From the NCBI GenBank assembly GCA_003576845.1, contig QEVJ01000002.1:1-64000 (forward strand): 64,000 bases of DNA, written 5' to 3'. The position numbers were made by a program, and so were the translations under genes. Position 1 is the stretch's first letter, and every line of letters begins with the position of its first letter. The stretch is from Planctomycetota bacterium (GTDB taxonomy: Bacteria > Planctomycetota > Planctomycetia > Pirellulales > PLA5). A model generated the notes under the pieces. The model searched no databases and was not told the DNA's origin. It was given only the letters and a program-made list of their open reading frames with translations. Below, in pieces: positions 10,057 through 48,210 of the stretch.

Positions 10057-10488
10057 TTATCGCTCCAACTCGCCGCGGCCGCCGGTAAACGTCAACTCCG
10101 ACGCGGCGTAGCTTGTCCCGTAGTTCTTGGCCAGCGCCGCGACCTGCCGCAGGCCCTCCGCCACCTGGTCCGCCGTCAATTCCGCGAGCGGGTGCAGATA
10201 GACGGCCCACAGATATCCGCCGGCGGTCGCATACCGCGCATCGAGCGTGCGATCGAAGTTCGCGGCCAAGAGCACGCGAAAATCGCGAACCCGCAACTCG
10301 TCGTAGGCGGCGATGATCGCCATGATCCGCATGCGGTCCGCCGCTTCGTCGGTCACGACGAGCATTCGATAGCCGCCGAACTCGACGAGCCAGCGGTTCG
10401 CCTCGCCGTCGGCATCGACGATCAGGCAGTTCTCCGCCAAGACTTCGCCGAGCCGTTCGTTGTCCATCAGGGCAATGGGTGCAAGCAT
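10057..10488 (-). CDS. YbjN/CesT-chaperone-like small protein
   Basis: About 143 residues with the alpha/beta pattern of YbjN-type sensory or chaperone-like proteins: NRWLVEFGGYRMLVVTDEAADRMRI in the first half and GGYLWAVYLHPLAELTADQVAEGL in the second. The ATG at 10488 has an AGGGGAA site about six bases upstream. The longer frame adds arginine-rich residues without support. The role is unknown; the family assignment is by eye only. Confidence 0.6.
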   Translation of the reverse strand: MLAPIALMDNERLGEVLAENCLIVDADGEANRWLVEFGGYRMLVVTDEAADRMRIMAIIAAYDELRVRDFRVLLAANFDRTLDARYATAGGYLWAVYLHPLAELTADQVAEGLRQVAALAKNYGTSYAASELTFTGGRGELER

Positions 10489-10796
10489 GATGATTCCCCT
10501 GGCTCCTCGGCGCACACCCTCGGCCCAAGCTCGGTCGCAGCGCGACGAGCTGCCCACCGATCGGTGCGTGCATGTACGATAATCACTTCGATGGCTTCAG
10601 TTCTGTCATTCTCCCTCCGGACTACGAGCAAGGCAAGGAATTTGCGCGCCTCGGGAATAAAAAACCAAGGAAACGCGATACGTGCACACGCCAAAAACCG
10701 TAGCCAAATACCGTAGGTTAGGACAGGCGGCGCTCGACTTGCCACGAGCGAATACCTTGCGCGCGCCGTCCTGACGGCCGGCTACCTGCAATCGGT

Positions 10797-37161: not shown

Positions 37162-37296
37162 TTTTCCGGGGTGCGGATACTCCCGGCGGCGATCGAAAAC
37201 CGGTATAATCTGGGCCGAGTTTTAGGGCTGGCGGTGCGCGCGTTGCCCCGGCGGTTTTTCGCACATTTTTTCCTCCAAGTTCGCGGACGGAGCCGA

Positions 37297-38415
37297 GTGG
37301 TCGACGGCGCGATCCATCTTCCGTTACCTCCCGTGCGGTTGCACGACGAGCGGCTTGCGGCCGAACGGTTGACGGCTGCGCCGCGGTTGCGCTCGTTCGT
37401 GGTGGACCAGGCAAACTCGTATGCCATCGCGGCCGCTCATGCGGTGCTGGACGATGCCTCGCCGCCGCCCGTCGTGTTGCTCTATGGTCCGTCGGGCGTG
37501 GGAAAGACACACCTCGCCGGGGCGCTCGCCCGACGTTGGCAAACATTGCATTCCGAAGCGCGGATCGTGGCGACGACGGGCGCGGACTTCGCTCGCGCAT
37601 GGGACCGGCCGTACAGCGACGACGCCGAAGACTTCGGCGACGATGACACCACATCGCGAACGCGCGAGCCGCGCCGAGCCGCGTGGAAAATGATCGCGCT
37701 CTTCGTGCTCGACAACATCGACGACCTCGCCGGCAAGCCGGCGGCGCAACGCGAATTGTGTGCCGCCCTCGATACGCTGGCGGTTTCCGGCGGAAGGGCA
37801 ATCGTCACGGCCCGATGTAATCCGGCGCGAGAACCTCGCTTCTCGCAGGGGCTCGTGAGCCGTTTGGACGGAGGCTTGGTCCTACCGCTCGGCAAGCCGG
37901 GCAAGGCCGCGCGAACCGCCATCCTCGCGGAGCTGGCGCTCATCCGCGGATTATCCCTATCGTCGGCCGCAATCGAACGGCTCGCCGAGTGCGATTTGCA
38001 AAGCGTGCCCGAGCTTGCAGGATTGATCCTGCGCCTCGACATGGAAGCCCGATCGGAAGGGGTCGCGCTTGACGACCGTTTCGTGGCCGAGCGCGTCGCC
38101 GCGAATCGACAGACTGGGGCAACGCTGCGGACAATTACGCAGCACGTGGCGGAACATTTCGGCGTGAAGCCGTCAGAACTTCGCTCGCCGGTGCGGCGTA
38201 AAGAAATCGTTGCCGCCCGGTGTGTTGCGATTTACCTGGCACGCGAATTGACCGGCGAAAGCCTGGAAGCGATCGGCCGGCATTTCGCGGGACGCGATCA
38301 CGCGACGGTCGCCTACAACGTCCGCAAAGTGGAACGCGAACTCGCGGCCGGCGTCGCGGAAACGACCCTGGCGATAACCCGCATCAAAGAGCGCTTGTAC
38401 GCCGAAGGATGGTGA
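37297..38415 (+). CDS. dnaA: replication initiator DnaA, short divergent form
   Basis: About 372 residues from the GTG at 37297, which has GGAG upstream (a GTG at 37171 would add 42 basic residues). Domain III has Walker A LLYGPSGVGKTHLAGALA and Walker B LFVLDNIDDL. Domain IV has the DnaA signature region RKEIVAARCVAIYLARELTGESLEAIGRHFAGRDHATVAYNVRKVE, which binds DnaA boxes. The domain I part that binds DnaB/DnaD is missing, and the AAA+ part is more divergent than usual. Position next to dnaN, DUF721 and gyrB confirms the identity. The protein is ~80 residues shorter than typical DnaA (about 450). Confidence 0.88.
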   Translation: MVDGAIHLPLPPVRLHDERLAAERLTAAPRLRSFVVDQANSYAIAAAHAVLDDASPPPVVLLYGPSGVGKTHLAGALARRWQTLHSEARIVATTGADFARAWDRPYSDDAEDFGDDDTTSRTREPRRAAWKMIALFVLDNIDDLAGKPAAQRELCAALDTLAVSGGRAIVTARCNPAREPRFSQGLVSRLDGGLVLPLGKPGKAARTAILAELALIRGLSLSSAAIERLAECDLQSVPELAGLILRLDMEARSEGVALDDRFVAERVAANRQTGATLRTITQHVAEHFGVKPSELRSPVRRKEIVAARCVAIYLARELTGESLEAIGRHFAGRDHATVAYNVRKVERELAAGVAETTLAITRIKERLYAEGW

Positions 38416-38780
38416 TGAAGGATTGCATTCCGATTGCGCCGCAAAACGTGTTAGCGGCGCGTTCGAGAATGCTCGCAAAAGAACGACTTACGCACAACGC
38501 CTAAGAGACAACTGCAAAAGCACGCCGGTGACGAACGAACGCTCGACGCACCGCGAACGAGCCGCAAACAGGTTTTCCGCCCCAGCGAACACGGTAGAAG
38601 TCCGCCAATTTCCCGGATACGACGTTCCTTTTCGCCTCCGCCGCAAGCACGAGCGACACGGATTCGCCCCGCTCTTATAACAATACCGTATTCAAAACAA
38701 CAATTAGGTTTCATCATCGCCGACGATTGTTCGTGGGAGTACCCAGTGCCCTCGAGCGTCGGCCCAAAAGGGATTGTGCC
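38416..38780. other. dnaA-dnaN intergenic region, possible origin
   Basis: This 365-base gap sits where many bacteria carry oriC. It holds one loose DnaA-box-like site, TTACGCACA at 38488-38496 (two differences from TTATCCACA), and an AT-richer stretch around 38675-38715 (CTTATAACAATACC). A cluster of boxes is not visible, so origin function is only suggested by position. Confidence 0.35.
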
Positions 38781-39902
38781 ATGAAAATCACCTGCCAGCG
38801 CGAAAAGTTCCTGCACGCATTCCAAACGGCCGCCGCGGTGGCGCCGGCTCGCAGCCCGAAGCCGATCCTCCAGAATGTCAAGCTCGAAGTCACACCGGAA
38901 AAAGCGACGCTCATCGCGACCGACTTGGAGATCGGCATTCGCATCGACGTGGCGGGGATCGACGTCGAGACGCCGGGCGTGGCGGTGCTGCCGGTCGGCA
39001 GATTCGGTTCGATCTTGCGCGAATCGAGCGACGAGAAGATGCGGCTGGAAACCGACGGTCAAGGGACGATCGTCAAGGGCGAGCGGAGCGAGTTCCGCCT
39101 GCCGGCCGAGAATCCCGCGGAATTTCCCACGGTGGCCTCGTTCAACGATGCGAAGTTCTTCGAGCTGCCGGCACGGCTGTTTCGCGAGATGATCCGCCGT
39201 ACGGTGTTTTCGACCGACAGCGAGAGCAGCCGGTATGCCCTGGGCGGCGTGCTCTTGGAGTTCGGCGAGAAGAGCGTGACTGCCGTTTCGACCGATGGCC
39301 GGCGGCTCTCGAAAATGGAAGGCCCGGGCCAGGCGGTCGGCGGTTTCGAGAAGACCGCCGCGAACTCCGCCACCATCGTACCTACGCGGTCGATGCAACT
39401 CATCGAACGGGCGCTCTCCGACGGCGACAGCGAAATCCAAATCGCCACCCGCGATAACGACGTGCTCGTGCGGAGTCCGCGGGCGACGATCTACTCGCGT
39501 CTGGTCGAAGGCCGGTTTCCGCGGTGGCGCGACGTGTTCCCGATGCGGTCGGATTCGGCCAAGATCGAGCTTTCCGTCGGGCCGTTTCACTCGGCCGTGC
39601 GTCAGGCGATGATCGTCACGAGTGAAGAAAGCCGCGGCGTCGACTTCCAGTTCGCCGACGGCACGCTCACGCTTACGGCCAGAGCCGCGGACGCGGGCCA
39701 GTCGCACGTCGAACTGCCGATCACCTACGACGGACCGAAGATCGCGATCATGCTTGATCCGCGGTACGTGAGCGATTTCCTCAAAGTGCTCGACGTCGAC
39801 CGGACGGTGACGTTCGACGTCAAAGACGGCGAACAAGCCGGCGTGTTCTCGACCGACGACGGGTACGGATACGTCGTGATGCCCTTGGCCCGCGAACGGT
39901 AG
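38781..39902 (+). CDS. dnaN: DNA polymerase III beta subunit (sliding clamp)
   Basis: A 373-residue clamp. The N-terminus MKITCQREKFLHAFQTAAAVAPARSPKPILQNVKLE is typical, and the ring-domain features LPVGRFGSILRES, STDGRRLSKMEG and the C-terminal PLAR (VVMPLARER) are visible. It is of normal length. ATG 38781 is preceded by AAAAGGGA. It belongs to the dnaA-dnaN-dciA-gyrB origin cluster. RecF, often next in this order, is absent. Confidence 0.96.
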   Translation: MKITCQREKFLHAFQTAAAVAPARSPKPILQNVKLEVTPEKATLIATDLEIGIRIDVAGIDVETPGVAVLPVGRFGSILRESSDEKMRLETDGQGTIVKGERSEFRLPAENPAEFPTVASFNDAKFFELPARLFREMIRRTVFSTDSESSRYALGGVLLEFGEKSVTAVSTDGRRLSKMEGPGQAVGGFEKTAANSATIVPTRSMQLIERALSDGDSEIQIATRDNDVLVRSPRATIYSRLVEGRFPRWRDVFPMRSDSAKIELSVGPFHSAVRQAMIVTSEESRGVDFQFADGTLTLTARAADAGQSHVELPITYDGPKIAIMLDPRYVSDFLKVLDVDRTVTFDVKDGEQAGVFSTDDGYGYVVMPLARER

Positions 39903-39906
39903 CGAA

Positions 39907-39948
39907 ATGCAAAAGGCAAAATGAGGAATGCAGAATGACGAGCATTCC
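39907..39948. repeat. heptanucleotide repeat run
   Basis: Six units: ATGCAAA, AGGCAAA, ATGAGGA, ATGCAGA, ATGACGA, GCATTCC, starting five bases after the dnaN stop. It is followed by GTAGGTCAGG (39949-39958), whose complement occurs at 40093-40102 just before DUF721. It may end dnaN transcription. Confidence 0.8.
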
Positions 39949-40116
39949 GTAGGTCAGGCTAAGCGGTGAACGACTTTGATTTGTGAATAGGCGTTATCCG
40001 CGCCGGCCTGACGGATGCGGCGACCAGCGCTATGCTGTCAGGCCAGCGCGGGTCGATTCCAACGATAATCAAACGTTCTTTGGCCCGCTTGACCTGACCT
40101 ACTTTCGGAACGTCGC

Positions 40117-40521
40117 ATGGCGAAGAGCAAGGCGAGTGAGTCGATTCACGCGAGCGGCGAGTTTTCGCGGCTCGTCGGCGACATCAATCGGCGACGCGGG
40201 GAGCCGGGCAACTTTTCGCGCGGAAAAACGAAGCGGATGGGCGATGTCGTGTCGCAGTTGCTTGCCCGGCGAGGTTATGCCCAAGAAACGACCTCGGCCG
40301 ACATCGCCGCGGCATGGCGCGAAGCCGTTGGCGAAGCAACCGCGACGTACACCCGTATCGGCGCCGTTCGTCGCGGTGTGCTCGATGTTGTCGTCGCCAA
40401 CTCCGCCGTGTCGCAAGAACTCACGTTTCGCAAAGCGCAGTTGATTGTGCAACTCGCCAAGCGGCTGCCGGAGCACAAAATCAAGAACATTCGATTCCGA
40501 ACGGGAAGTGTGGGAGAGTGA
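40117..40521 (+). CDS. dciA: DUF721/DciA-family protein
   Basis: A 134-residue product. The DUF721 fold is visible from RMGDVVSQLLARRGYAQ through IAAAWREAVGEATATYTRIGAVRRGVLDVVVANSAVSQELTFRKAQLIVQLAKRL. In bacteria without DnaC/DnaI loaders, DciA loads the DnaB helicase at the origin. The position between dnaN and gyrB is the classical one. The N-terminal ~40 residues are basic and probably disordered. Confidence 0.85.
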   Translation: MAKSKASESIHASGEFSRLVGDINRRRGEPGNFSRGKTKRMGDVVSQLLARRGYAQETTSADIAAAWREAVGEATATYTRIGAVRRGVLDVVVANSAVSQELTFRKAQLIVQLAKRLPEHKIKNIRFRTGSVGE

Positions 40522-40526
40522 GCAGC

Positions 40527-43200
<2,674 letters not shown>

Positions 43201-43244
43201 ACTGCCGACGCAAAAACCACAACTCGACGTATCGTTGCCGACTC

Positions 43245-43280
43245 GTTGCGGATTGCTCGCGGGGCGGGAGCGGATACACT
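43245..43280 (+). CRISPR. single 36-bp type II-C CRISPR repeat, no spacer
   Basis: A solitary repeat beginning GTTGCGGATTGC and ending GCGGATACACT. It is identified because its first six bases and last 25 bases pair completely with the tracrRNA anti-repeat at 47974-48010 (31 pairs, four of them G:U). It lies 45 bases after the gyrB stop and 48 bases before the cas2 stop, reading on the plus strand. No second copy is found 30 bases on either side. The TACACT end resembles the -10 box found within N. meningitidis-type II-C repeats (established for that system), so it may start transcription outward. Confidence 0.8.
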
Positions 43281-43328
43281 ATCTCACGCCTAAAGCCTTT
43301 CGCAGAGTGGGTTTGTGAGCAATCGAGG

Positions 43329-43658
43329 TCAGAATAATTCGAGTTGAGCGGGCGGCGGCGCGGGGAGCTTGCGGATTTTTCCCCAAAAGATGCGCATTCG
43401 CTCGAACTGTTTGTCGGTGATGGTGATGATTCGCACTTCGCCGTCGGGTGGGACCATGCGCTCGACGCGCTGGATGTGGACGGCCGCGTTCTCCTCGCTC
43501 GCGCAGTGCCGGGCGTAAACCGAGAACTGCATCTTCGTGAAACCGTCCTTGAGCAAGCCCTTGCGAAAGTCGGCATAGGCGCGACGGGCTTTCTTCGTGT
43601 CGACCGGCAGGTCGAAGAGCGTAAGGACCCACATACATCGGTAGCCGCTCAGTTGCAC
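43329..43658 (-). CDS. cas2: CRISPR-associated endonuclease Cas2
   Basis: A 109-residue Cas2 of the type II-C kind, part of the Cas1-Cas2 spacer-integration complex. Visible are YRCMWVLTLFDLPVDTKKARRAYADFRKGLLKDGF with the conserved Asp after the first strand, QFSVYARHCASEENAAVHI, and PPDGEVRIITITDKQFERM. GYRCMW at the N-terminus favours the GTG start at 43658, although an ATG at 43634 is possible. The start overlaps the cas1 stop by ten bases, so translation is coupled. Confidence 0.95.
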   Translation of the reverse strand: MQLSGYRCMWVLTLFDLPVDTKKARRAYADFRKGLLKDGFTKMQFSVYARHCASEENAAVHIQRVERMVPPDGEVRIITITDKQFERMRIFWGKIRKLPAPPPAQLELF

Positions 43659-44602
43659 GGGACGGGGGCTGGGGAATCGGGGGTCGGGATTCGGGATTCG
43701 GCATTTGGGGAGTCCGCTTTGAGTGGCTCAGGAAACTCGATTGCTTTCGCCTTGCCTTGGAAGCATTTGACGAGCGAGGCGACCATGCGATGGAGGTTGA
43801 CCATCAGCGGTCCCGTTTCGTCGCCGACTTGGGTTTCGATCGTGAGCAGTTCCAGGAGCGCCGCCTTGGTCTGTTGATCGAGCTCGTTGCGCTCGTTTGC
43901 GAGCAGTTCTTTGACGCGGGCGTCGACGAGCGGGCGGAGCGGCTCGATCAGGTCGTCGGCCAGGCAAAAGGCGTTCGCGCGGTTCGAGTGCTTGATGCCG
44001 AGCGACGGCAAGAGACCCGCGGCGACGATCGCCCGCGCGATGGCGGCGCGGAGGACGGCATAGCCGTAGTTCAAGAGCGGGTTCGGTCCGTCGCCGAAGC
44101 GGTCGCGGCGAAAGGCGATGCTCTCGAAGAACGCGGACCAGTACACGCGCGAGGCCTGGGCTTCGTGGTTCTTCGGGTCGCCGCTGCGCACCGTGCGGGC
44201 GAGTTCCAAGAGCCGCGTGCGCGCGGGACCGGCGGAGAGGTTCGCGGCCTGGGCGCGGATCTTTGCCTGAACGATCTGTTTCCAGAGTTGCTTTCGCAGC
44301 GGGCCGGCGAGTGCGACCTGGTCGCGGACGCGCCACACGACCTGAGAATGATCGGCGAGAGGCAGGAGGATGGCGGCCGGCAGATGATCGCGGCCGCAAA
44401 CGACGACGGCGGCGTCGACGGAGGCGAGCTGGGCGAGAGCGGCGTGGGAGTAGGTCGTGCCCGGATGGTCGACGAGGACGACGCCGACGTCCTCGCAGGG
44501 GATGCTGGCGACGGTCTGCCCGTCGCGCTTGAGCAGAAGCTGCTCGAGCTGCACGGTCAGATGCGCCGGCTCGCGCGAGATTTCGATGGTCCGCTTGATC
44601 AT
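43649..44602 (-). CDS. cas1: CRISPR-associated endonuclease Cas1 with heptad-encoded tail
   Basis: A 317-residue type II Cas1, the integrase of spacer acquisition. Candidate metal ligands match S. pyogenes Cas1 in position: E147 (NHEAQASRVYW), H205 (GIKHSNRANAF) and E220 (ADDLIEPLRP). The start and length are normal. The last ~17 residues (about 299-315, rich in Pro/Ser) are encoded by a seven-unit heptad run (43659-43707), just before the overlapping cas2 start. It is unlikely that the tail is needed for catalysis. No cas4 or csn2 is present, which defines subtype II-C. Confidence 0.96.
   Translation of the reverse strand: MIKRTIEISREPAHLTVQLEQLLLKRDGQTVASIPCEDVGVVLVDHPGTTYSHAALAQLASVDAAVVVCGRDHLPAAILLPLADHSQVVWRVRDQVALAGPLRKQLWKQIVQAKIRAQAANLSAGPARTRLLELARTVRSGDPKNHEAQASRVYWSAFFESIAFRRDRFGDGPNPLLNYGYAVLRAAIARAIVAAGLLPSLGIKHSNRANAFCLADDLIEPLRPLVDARVKELLANERNELDQQTKAALLELLTIETQVGDETGPLMVNLHRMVASLVKCFQGKAKAIEFPEPLKADSPNAESRIPTPDSPAPVPCN
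43659..43707. repeat. seven-unit heptad run at the cas1-cas2 junction
   Basis: Units GGGACGG, GGGCTGG, GGAATCG, GGGGTCG, GGATTCG, GGATTCG, GCATTTG run gap-free. They encode the Cas1 C-terminus and sit one base before the cas2 GTG (43658), inside the coupled translation junction. Confidence 0.85.
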
Positions 44603-44722: not shown

Positions 44723-47700
44723 TCAGTCGTTGGCCCAGCGGATGCGGCCGAGCGGGTCGACCGTGACTTTGCGGCCGCGCAGCGTATTTGGCGTGCGACG
44801 TTGGATGAGCGGTGGCTTGTCGTAGTCACTCACTTTGCCGGCGTATGTGTGCGGACGAAGGATGATGCTCCCTTCGGACATTTTCTGTACGCGATGCGGC
44901 ATCGTAGACCCGTTATCGAGTTCCAACAGAATGACGTCGTTAATCGACAGTGACATAATGAAACGGCGTGTCGGGCCGTGGTTGCGCTGTATGACCGGGA
45001 AGCGTTCTGCGGTCTCTCTTTTCGTCACTTGAATACTCCGCTCGAGCTTTGATGCGGAGAGCGTCAGGTGCGATAATTCTTGTCGTCGTGTACGAAGCGC
45101 TCTTTGTGCGTCACGAATTCGTTCGGCAGCTTCGACCATTGAAACTAAGATACCTTCGCATTGCGGAGTTCCGTCACGATTCAGAATGGGGTCACCATTC
45201 TCGTTAAGTAATTCCACGATCTCCATGTGGTGATTGCTGCCGAGTTCGACGTATGTGTGTGTCCGAATGCTGTGATAGGACTCGCCTTTTTCCAGCAAGC
45301 GAACCTTTTTGATCGGAATGCCTGATGCCATGGTTGGGCCATCCTTCCAAACCGTGGGGCTGAACTTTTGTGGGAGCGACGGATCGATTCCACGAACACG
45401 AAGATACTCTTCAAGAGTTTTCCGAATCGCTGAATCGCGTACCTTCGCAATGTGCTTCGTGCTATCGAGTTCCTCAATCTTCTTTCGGCGCACGTACGTT
45501 GTCGCATCTTCTGTCCATGTCTTTGCCCAAGGACGGTCTATCGTCGCGCTTCGTGGCTTCACCGTCGCACCATACATAAAATCCTTGTGTAGCGCTCCTG
45601 CGATCCGGCGTTGCGTTCGGAAGGAAACGACGATGCGGTTTGTGACTTCAATGACTTGGTCGCGAAATTTATCCCAAGGGTCGAGCATGATTTCGCCGGT
45701 GACATCTTCGCCGCCACGGCGATTCATCTCGGCCAGTTGTTGCAAGCGCTTCTGATCCGTCAGGGCGATGGCGATGGCGTCAACGGCGTGGTGACGGTGG
45801 TCGTCGCGGTTCTTGATGTCGAGGTCGTCGTGGCGCAAAACGGAGTTGAGTCCCCAATGCCGGCGGAGCGTCGCGGTTTGCTCTCCCTTGACGCACAGAG
45901 CGTGGTGGGGATCTGCGACTAGGCAGCGGACATATTCCAGCACGGCGCGGCTGATGTAGCGTGTGTCGTTGAGTTGCCGCTGAATGAAATCATCGAGTTC
46001 GAGCGTCTTTTGCGTAAATCGCTTGCGTTTGTTGTATGGCAGCGATGCGACGTGCTGCTTCAATTGCTCGAATTCTGCCGGCTGGCGCGCCGCGAGCCAT
46101 TCGTGGGGCGTTTCTTGTCCCTTGTCGTGATTGGCGGTGCGAAAGCAGACGACTTTGTTGGCCATCGAATCATCGAGGCAGCGGGAGTAGGGCAGGATGT
46201 GGTCGATGTCGATTTCGCCCGTGCCGCTGAGGAGTTGGGCGATGCTGATCGGTTTGCCGCTGTAGGGGCAAGTCTCGCGTTGTTCCTTCCACAGCAAATA
46301 GCGGTCGATCGCGTCGCGGGTGACCTTTACGCCGTGCTCGCGAATCTTGTTCGCGGCATCGTCGCGGACGGCTTCGCGTTCGCGCATGGCTTCGCCAATG
46401 CGCTTCCTCTCTTCGGAAGTCGCCTTGGCGTTGCGGGCAAGCTCAATATGAATTCGGTCGGGCTTGCCGTATTCGCGAATGATGGCGTTGACGACTTTGC
46501 GAACCTCGTGCAGCGCCTGGCGAACGACGGAATTCGTGACCTCGGGTGGCTTTGGCAGGCAATCTAGTTGCGGGCGCATGATTTGGTCGCGCCGCAGGTA
46601 ACCGGCTTCCGAGAGTGCAGACGGCGTGTCGTCGTCGGTCATGTAGAGGAGTCCGTGGCGCATGTGCGGAAGGAGTTTTTCGAGAGCCATACGGCTGAGA
46701 CCCAGGTACTCGGACGGCAGGTCGACATCGACGAGCGCTTCGGCAACATCGGGCGATACGCCCCAGTCGCTTATGGCCCGGCGGCGGATTTCGTCGTCGT
46801 CGGCGTGGATGAGCGTGCGGACGATTTCATCGCGCTGGGTTTCCGGGCGTTTATACCAGGCAGGGCCAAACAATCCTTTCGCGGCAAGGGTCGCGTCCGT
46901 TACCATACCGAGGAGCTTTGTGCGTTTACCGCGTTCGAGGTTGAACGTGACGTTCTCGGAGAAGTTGAGCGTCTTGCGGATGTCGTTGAACGACAGTTCC
47001 TTTTTCTGCGCGAGCTTGTCGATGAGCAGTGTGCGCTGTTGCTCGTCGAGGCGGCAATCGTCGCCGGTCGCCGGGTCGACGTACCGCAAGTTGTTAACTT
47101 CTTGCAGCAGGCGGAACCATTGCGCGAGGCGGTCCGCCCGCGGGCAGCGCTTTTGTGTTGGCTCAAGCTCGCAGCGGCCGACGACGGACGCGGGCCAATA
47201 CATTTTGCGTTGGAAGAAGATCATGCGGTGGATGCGGCCGCGGAGTTCGTCCGTTAGCAGCGAGTTTTTTCGTTGCTGAGCGTCCCAGATGGCATTGAAT
47301 TCGCATTCGTACATCGCCCGCAACGTGTGGCGATGGCGCACGTGGTCGTCTTCGGCGCGGTTTCGATGGTCGAGGGTCTCGGCCTTTTGGCAAAGATACT
47401 CGCCGAGCGTGCGGCAGTTGGCGGCCTTGATCTTGCCTTCGAGGGCGCTGATCTCGGCGAGCATGCCTTTGGTTTCGGCCTTGCGTTCGCGGTCAGTTTT
47501 GCGATTGGAGAGGAAGCCACGGCGCTGATTGAGGTGGATCAGGACGCGGCCGAGTTCATAGGGCGCGAGCGGTTCGTCGAGCGCGCGGCGACGGAGGTGG
47601 TAGGGATCGAGCCCTTCGAGTCGTTGTTGTTCCGCGGGATCGGCGGGCAAGAGCTTGGCTTTGACAAGTGCTTCGCGGAGCTTGCGTTTGCGGCGGCTGC

Positions 47701-47899
47701 GGCGAGCGATCTGACGGCGCATCCCGCGGGCGATGCGGCGGGCTTCGCTTTTGGACTTTTCCTTCTTGGTGTCGAAGTTGTCGACGCCTTCGGGAAATAC
47801 CCGAACGCCGGCGGCGAGGATTTTGTTTTCGTCGGTGTCGACGAGTGCCCAGCCGATCGAGTTCGCGCCGAGATCGAGACCGAGAGTGCGATTTCCCAT
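44723..47899 (-). CDS. cas9: CRISPR-associated endonuclease Cas9, type II-C
   Basis: A 1058-residue RNA-guided nuclease; the length is typical of subtype II-C. RuvC-I is LGLDLGANSIGW (D9), followed by the arginine-rich bridge helix. RuvC-II is RIHIELARN (E486). HNH is EIDIDHILPYSRCLDDSMANKVVC (D566, H567, N581, N590). RuvC-III is HRHHAVDAIAIAL (H703, H704, D707). All catalytic residues are intact, so it should cut both strands. The C-terminal ~250 residues hold the PAM-interacting region. I chose ATG 47899 because D9 then sits where it does in other Cas9s. A TTG at 47944 would extend into the tracrRNA promoter. cas1 and cas2 follow on the same strand. Confidence 0.97.
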   Translation of the reverse strand: MGNRTLGLDLGANSIGWALVDTDENKILAAGVRVFPEGVDNFDTKKEKSKSEARRIARGMRRQIARRSRRKRKLREALVKAKLLPADPAEQQRLEGLDPYHLRRRALDEPLAPYELGRVLIHLNQRRGFLSNRKTDRERKAETKGMLAEISALEGKIKAANCRTLGEYLCQKAETLDHRNRAEDDHVRHRHTLRAMYECEFNAIWDAQQRKNSLLTDELRGRIHRMIFFQRKMYWPASVVGRCELEPTQKRCPRADRLAQWFRLLQEVNNLRYVDPATGDDCRLDEQQRTLLIDKLAQKKELSFNDIRKTLNFSENVTFNLERGKRTKLLGMVTDATLAAKGLFGPAWYKRPETQRDEIVRTLIHADDDEIRRRAISDWGVSPDVAEALVDVDLPSEYLGLSRMALEKLLPHMRHGLLYMTDDDTPSALSEAGYLRRDQIMRPQLDCLPKPPEVTNSVVRQALHEVRKVVNAIIREYGKPDRIHIELARNAKATSEERKRIGEAMREREAVRDDAANKIREHGVKVTRDAIDRYLLWKEQRETCPYSGKPISIAQLLSGTGEIDIDHILPYSRCLDDSMANKVVCFRTANHDKGQETPHEWLAARQPAEFEQLKQHVASLPYNKRKRFTQKTLELDDFIQRQLNDTRYISRAVLEYVRCLVADPHHALCVKGEQTATLRRHWGLNSVLRHDDLDIKNRDDHRHHAVDAIAIALTDQKRLQQLAEMNRRGGEDVTGEIMLDPWDKFRDQVIEVTNRIVVSFRTQRRIAGALHKDFMYGATVKPRSATIDRPWAKTWTEDATTYVRRKKIEELDSTKHIAKVRDSAIRKTLEEYLRVRGIDPSLPQKFSPTVWKDGPTMASGIPIKKVRLLEKGESYHSIRTHTYVELGSNHHMEIVELLNENGDPILNRDGTPQCEGILVSMVEAAERIRDAQRALRTRRQELSHLTLSASKLERSIQVTKRETAERFPVIQRNHGPTRRFIMSLSINDVILLELDNGSTMPHRVQKMSEGSIILRPHTYAGKVSDYDKPPLIQRRTPNTLRGRKVTVDPLGRIRWAND

Positions 47900-47937: not shown

Positions 47938-47966
47938 TTGACAAGGCACCTATTCTAACGGATACT
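47938..47966 (+). promoter_or_regulatory. predicted tracrRNA promoter
   Basis: A perfect -35 box TTGACA (47938-47943), 17 bases of spacing, and a -10-like GATACT (47961-47966) would start transcription near 47973, one base before the anti-repeat. It diverges from cas9, whose own promoter must share this ~70-base gap. Confidence 0.65.
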
Positions 47967-47972
47967 TCCGTT

Positions 47973-48085
47973 CAGTGTATCCGCTCCTGCTCTGCGAGAC
48001 TTTTCGTAACAAGACGAAACATTCGCAGGCACTGCCCTACGGGGCAACCAGCCGCAATGCCGTGAGGTAGGGCGGCTTTTTCTTT
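47973..48085 (+). ncRNA. tracrRNA
   Basis: A predicted ~113-nt RNA that joins Cas9 to crRNA. Anti-repeat: 47974-47998 pairs with repeat bases 12-36 (22 Watson-Crick and 3 G:U pairs) and 48005-48010 (CGTAAC) pairs with repeat bases 1-6 (5 plus 1 G:U). The 5x6 internal loop (ACTTTT against GATTG) is the usual type II bulge. Downstream, TGCCC/GGGCA (48033-48046) can form the nexus hairpin. The last stem AGCCGC/GCGGCT with TTTTCTTT forms the terminator. Free RNA may also fold on itself (TTTCGT with ACGAAA). It is transcribed away from cas9. Confidence 0.85.
48032..48085 (+). terminator. Rho-independent terminator of the tracrRNA
   Basis: Either the nine-pair stem CTGCCCTAC (48032-48040)/GTAGGGCGG (48067-48075) or the shorter AGCCGC/GCGGCT stem is followed directly by CTTTTTCTTT (48076-48085). 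Confidence 0.75.
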
Positions 48086-48176: not shown

Positions 48177-48210
48177 CTTGTTGTGCGTTTCACGTGAAAC
48201 GCACAACAAG
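48177..48210. promoter_or_regulatory. parS-like centromere site in a 34-bp perfect palindrome
   Basis: The centre CGTTTCACGTGAAACG (48186-48201) matches the conserved parS core GTTTCACGTGAAAC exactly; the canonical 16-mer has T/A at the outer bases. The symmetry extends to 17 bases per arm without loop (48177-48210). ParB binds parS to segregate replicated origins, and parS sites cluster near oriC, which fits dnaA/dnaN/gyrB 5-11 kb away. A role as a plain terminator is less likely because the palindrome has no loop. Confidence 0.7.

Follow-up and report, generated by a model that had tools for sequence, protein, structure and literature searches.

The 64,000-nucleotide stretch of DNA analyzed here (the window), which is part of contig C289 (121,867 bases) in the draft genome of a planctomycete of the Pirellulales group (7,048,853 bases in 289 contigs, 99% complete), carries a type II-C CRISPR-Cas locus that, with a probability of about 60%, truly has one repeat and no spacers and goes back to an ancestral array that lost all of its spacers. 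An earlier note on this sequence had offered three options: an empty founder array, an array stripped of its spacers or a real array located elsewhere in the genome. Among these, the complete loss of spacers fits best, since the repeat seems to have co-evolved with the tracrRNA of the locus, relatives possess long arrays at the same site and arrays of only two or three repeats exist as well. The array elsewhere did not find support and the founder array appears unlikely.

The 128-nt gap between the stop codon of gyrB (40609-43200, + strand, with DNA_gyraseB and C-terminal domains), which points at the repeat, and the stop codon of cas2 at 43329 (- strand) holds one 36-nt repeat at 43245-43280, with the crRNA sense on the + strand. 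It is separated from gyrB by a 44-nt far (trailer) side (43201-43244) and from cas2 by a 48-nt leader (43281-43328) on the acquisition side. This is a genuine type II-C repeat, because its 36-nt boundaries match those of the array repeats in relatives (AGTGTA...CCGCAAC on the cas strand, with the same position and strand), its distance of 48 nt to the cas2 stop lies inside the family range of 47-53 nt, and a matching anti-repeat is located upstream of cas9. The claim of the earlier note that the site contains one repeat and zero spacers was borne out: no second copy with up to 3 mismatches occurs in the 64-kb window (0 expected) and no degraded second repeat was found at spacer distance on either side of 43245-43280. 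The whole-genome search suggested at that time, done with a near-exact pattern and a relaxed family pattern, detected no second copy in the 7,048,853-base draft genome either and thus gives no support to a real array elsewhere. As a CRISPR array needs two or more repeats separated by unique spacers and both the window and the genome contain only one repeat, we class the locus not as a CRISPR array but as a II-C cas locus that retains a one-repeat remnant. The repeat itself bears no scar by which a product of recombination could be distinguished from an original repeat.

Cas9, Cas1 and Cas2 are encoded on the - strand by full-length open reading frames, which match type II models. In detail, these are cas2 (43329-43658, 109 aa; PF09827, TIGR01573, PADLOC Cas2_II), cas1 of type II (43649-44602, 317 aa; PF01867, TIGR03639, PADLOC Cas1_II) and cas9 (44723-47899, about 1058 aa from the ATG at 47899; PF13395, PF18541, PF18470 and TIGR01865 with 698.7 bits). 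An alternative, longer cas9 frame starting with TTG at 47944 would overlap the tracrRNA promoter. The E/H/E triad of the Cas1 active site is present in the alignment to 4zkj, and the alignment of Cas9 to solved type II structures (9ar4) revealed the RuvC-I D, the RuvC-II E, the HNH DH and the RuvC-III HH..D motifs, in agreement with the HNH_4, RuvC_III and TIGR01865 domain matches. The combination of a Cas9 with RuvC and HNH domains, type II cas1 and cas2, an operon that lacks csn2 and cas4 and a tracrRNA predicted from the sequence, whose anti-repeat is complementary to the repeat, corresponds to type II-C. Judged by the full-length frames with their family matches, the catalytic motifs and the anti-repeat, cas9-cas1-cas2 and the tracrRNA look intact, which is in line with the functional appearance described in the earlier note.

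The cas operon is flanked by gyrB on one side and by a ThuA/3-keto-disaccharide hydrolase gene on the other side. As dnaA, dnaN and gyrB (37171-43200) are located directly upstream, the CRISPR locus lies in the usual neighbourhood of a replication origin. Palindromic repeats of the GGGGTCAGGGGTC type occur in frame within gyrB (42634-42769) and at the C-terminal end of cas1 (43665-43700), reminiscent of a dispersed element that has entered coding sequences. Matches to the Rfam families mir-H1 and mir-H20 at 42631-42770 are under the gathering scores, fall on the palindromic repeat within gyrB and were discarded. Just beyond the tracrRNA, a perfect 17-bp palindrome, CTTGTTGTGCGTTTCACGTGAAACGCACAACAAG, is found at 48177-48210 as the sole such core in the window and resembles a parS chromosome-partition site.

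The tracrRNA (47973-48083) lies on the + strand, opposite to cas9, upstream of this gene and divergent from it. Its elements follow the same order as in the relatives: a promoter-like site (47938-47966, TTGACA-17-GATACT, 10 of 12 consensus positions with 0.1 such sites expected), the anti-repeat (47974-48010), the nexus region, which is conserved, and a hairpin with a T run that resembles a terminator, as identified by alignment to the repeat and to the tracrRNAs of relatives, by folding and by a terminator scan. Repeat and anti-repeat pair at all 22 upper-stem positions (19 Watson-Crick, 3 G-U), whereas the repeat in combination with foreign anti-repeats pairs at 14-20 positions only. The same holds true for the family: over 17 loci the mean own pairing is 21.6, compared to 17.9 with the anti-repeats of other loci, and none of 20,000 permutations attained the observed pairing total. 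Joined by a short loop, repeat and tracrRNA fold with -93.9 kcal/mol (z -11.7). Furthermore, the C at position 11 of the repeat (cas strand), which is unseen in the other compared repeats of the subfamily, is mirrored in the anti-repeat. This pattern suggests that the repeat has co-evolved with the tracrRNA of its own locus.

A Cas1-anchored search of public genomes yielded 54 loci, and further loci were obtained from whole-genome searches. The comparison of relatives, as proposed in the earlier note, succeeded in so far as homologous loci mostly carry arrays of 2-78 repeats at this place, but the genome from the same genus (G001) lacks the locus. Most planctomycete relatives possess closely similar 36-nt repeats with a period of 66 nt directly after cas2, and the distance between cas2 stop and repeat is 47-53 nt in the cleanly placeable planctomycete loci, with a few remote or damaged loci outside this range. 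The repeats of the family were found in 11 of 13 genomes of relatives and, among the copies listed by position, all are located at the cas locus. Exceptions to the array position are lone additional copies shortly upstream of cas9 (L008 at 3278 and L018 at 3449; G115 and G123), oriented like the repeats of the array. In several arrays (e.g., L008, L013, L031 and L032) the far-end repeats are altered, which is expected if spacers join at the cas2 side and is consistent with the statement that the last repeat is the site of acquisition in II-C systems and the oldest one gathers mutations (PMC12080349); the one repeat of our locus gives no readout of polarity. The loci of Lacipirellula limnantheis (NZ_CP036339, L013) and of a Pirellulales MAG (JAUWHT010000335, L005) share with it the order cas9-cas1-cas2, a divergent tracrRNA upstream of cas9, the 36-nt repeat family and a repeat about 49 nt after cas2, but contain 7 and at least 9 repeats, respectively, in contrast to one repeat without spacers in the window.

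In G001, gyrB is 90% identical, the sequence after gyrB is unrelated and no matching Cas9, Cas1 or repeat was found. Directly after the gyrB stop on contig C536 of this genome (L154), 11 nt of the repeat (GCGGATTGCTC) recur (Markov p 0.0005), which is possibly a relic of an older locus or due to chance. A close relative with a spacer-bearing version of the allele was not found. Of the features of a collapsed array, a leader and a repeat are present, and the one same-genus genome, G001, offers no spacers for comparison, as it lacks the locus.

Several arrays of the relatives show peculiarities of their own. The far flank of the L006 array contains an inverted copy of most of the repeat (10404-10553), which could pair with the oldest repeat in the transcript and silence an extraneous crRNA. 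In L107 (G028), a very strong hairpin in the far flank adjoins the oldest repeat (z -7.6) and fits the structures proposed against extraneous crRNAs (PMC12080349). The two-repeat array after the cas2 stop in L160 is interrupted in the middle of its second repeat by unrelated sequence, probably an insertion element, and a sequencing-adapter-like sequence (CTGTCTCTTATACACATCT) directly after the repeat at the contig end of L044 is an assembly artefact in the public record.

The single repeat represents the end of a continuum of array sizes, as the 36 distinct loci that are readable, i.e., whose contig runs past the last repeat, include three with one repeat and five more with two or three repeats. 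Arrays of 2-4 repeats exist as well, including two from genomes that are finished or almost so, and none of the three one-repeat loci sits in a finished genome. The other two, L007 (JAGQPX010000080.1) and L052 (JAFIFY010000186.1), each have a single copy of the repeat in their own draft genome, and this copy is located at the family position and matches the own tracrRNA. Both differ from our locus by their place on other branches of the Cas1 tree and L007 also by another sequence beyond the repeat. Three changes are needed to explain the separate branches of the three loci, and the starred branches force at least two.

The leader on the cas2 side looks intact by comparison with its relatives. 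If the loci are aligned at the repeat, a T at position -13 from the repeat is conserved in 56 of 56 loci and in 11 of 11 loci fetched later, and an A at -34 in 53 of 56 and in 10 of 11 loci, and both are present here. The two near-invariant positions are about two helical turns apart and are possibly the docking signal of Cas1-Cas2 in the II-C group. The 44-nt far flank was also considered as the place of a surviving old spacer, which was rejected, as it has no viral match.

The main rival to a loss of all spacers is a collapse during assembly, with a normal array in the cells and a short-read assembler that bridged from the leader to the far flank by way of the 36-nt repeat and left out the spacer units. 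We consider this improbable, but it has to be taken seriously, as the source is a draft metagenome assembly in 289 contigs, in which the one-repeat junction was read from the assembled contig, and many contigs of relatives end inside or at the array, indicating that assemblers struggle at such sites. On the other hand, the repeat occurs in no other contig of the bin, and a join longer than the repeat would by reasoning require reads spanning leader, repeat and flank. The same genome (G000) also provides an internal comparison: it encodes a type I-G set (Cas4-Cas1, Cas2, Cas8g, Cas3g, Csb2 and Csb1), whose array (L092) is cut off after three repeats by the end of contig C206, so that a real array did break the contig, whereas the II-C site was assembled through. 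The same one-repeat state in the two other assemblies, L007 and L052, argues in the same direction, and so does the continuum of array sizes. It is very improbable that a plasmid or another part of the genome harbours the working array. At 99% completeness a small part of the genome is missing, and short contigs with arrays are often left out of bins, but a second copy is missing from the genome, the copies listed by position in relatives are all found at the cas locus, and a search of plasmid, phage and viral collections and viral contigs with the repeat gave no match.

A founder array, which was gained with leader and one repeat and never stored a spacer, would agree with the undamaged repeat and with the absence of the locus from G001, according to which the gain may be recent. 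We regard this as unlikely, because substitutions atypical for the family occur jointly in repeat and anti-repeat, which implies that functional guide RNAs were once under selection in this lineage. In addition, the loci of relatives nearly always contain spacers, and the 11-nt match directly after gyrB in G001 is a weak hint of an older presence. It is also conceivable that the locus was repurposed and that read-through from gyrB results in a fixed crRNA-like RNA that directs Cas9 against a target in the host. The gyrB gene runs towards the repeat at a distance of only 44 nt, and no terminator-like site was found on the + strand between the gyrB stop and the repeat (43201-43244). Nevertheless, this is hardly credible: the last 24 nt of the far flank, which would serve as pseudo-guide, have no other match in the genome with up to 3 mismatches, and a crRNA-like RNA with a host target was rejected for this reason. 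A hairpin between the repeat and the upstream sequence, which might lock the repeat, was rejected as well, since it is not significant (p 0.19 when 24 nt of upstream sequence are included, 0.64 for 44 nt).

If all spacers were lost, the simplest route would be a recombination between the first and the last repeat of the ancestral array, which would remove every spacer and leave leader, one repeat and far flank as product. Without a spacer-derived guide, Cas9 would provide no targeted defence and the locus would be silent in interference; transcription of gyrB through the repeat would yield at most an extraneous crRNA with a non-viral guide. By analogy with known systems, the locus could still be able to acquire spacers. 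In Legionella, the loss of whole arrays by recombination of the first and last repeats leaves one repeat that can be refilled (PMC7056967). The collapsed arrays of Legionella pneumophila resemble our locus in that all spacers are gone and one repeat remains beside the cas genes, but they belong to type I, the refillable one-repeat strain was engineered and the natural cases were inferred from repeat scars (PMC7056967). In laboratory experiments, type II-A loci with one repeat gain spacers when challenged with phage (PMC8034620, PMC12216489). These Streptococcus pyogenes plasmids, for which acquisition was demonstrated, likewise combine Cas9, Cas1 and Cas2 with a single repeat and differ from our locus as engineered II-A systems with csn2 that acquire at the first and not at the last repeat. 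In principle, the collapse of an array to one repeat has therefore been described before and is of low novelty; the literature searched contained no paper on natural spacerless one-repeat II-C loci.

It is tempting to speculate that total collapse to one repeat, the state of 3 of the 36 readable loci, recurs naturally in this II-C family and acts as a bottleneck that lets regrown repeats follow changes of the anti-repeat, but we consider this generalization doubtful. Regrowth from a single survivor would swap all repeats at once, and the covariation of repeat and anti-repeat would be its trace. As array finders require at least two repeats, they score one-repeat loci as cas genes that lack an array. 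For type II, isolated cas loci with no array close by were put at 22% (PMC5294841), and some of them may be like the locus described here. One-repeat loci, if real, also suggest that counts of “orphan cas” genes hide loci that may still acquire spacers. If the one-repeat state is real, such loci would be natural naive CRISPR-Cas9 systems, in which the acquisition of the first spacer can be studied without priming, and the cost of a guide-less Cas9 as well as the refilling of a wiped memory would become open to study.
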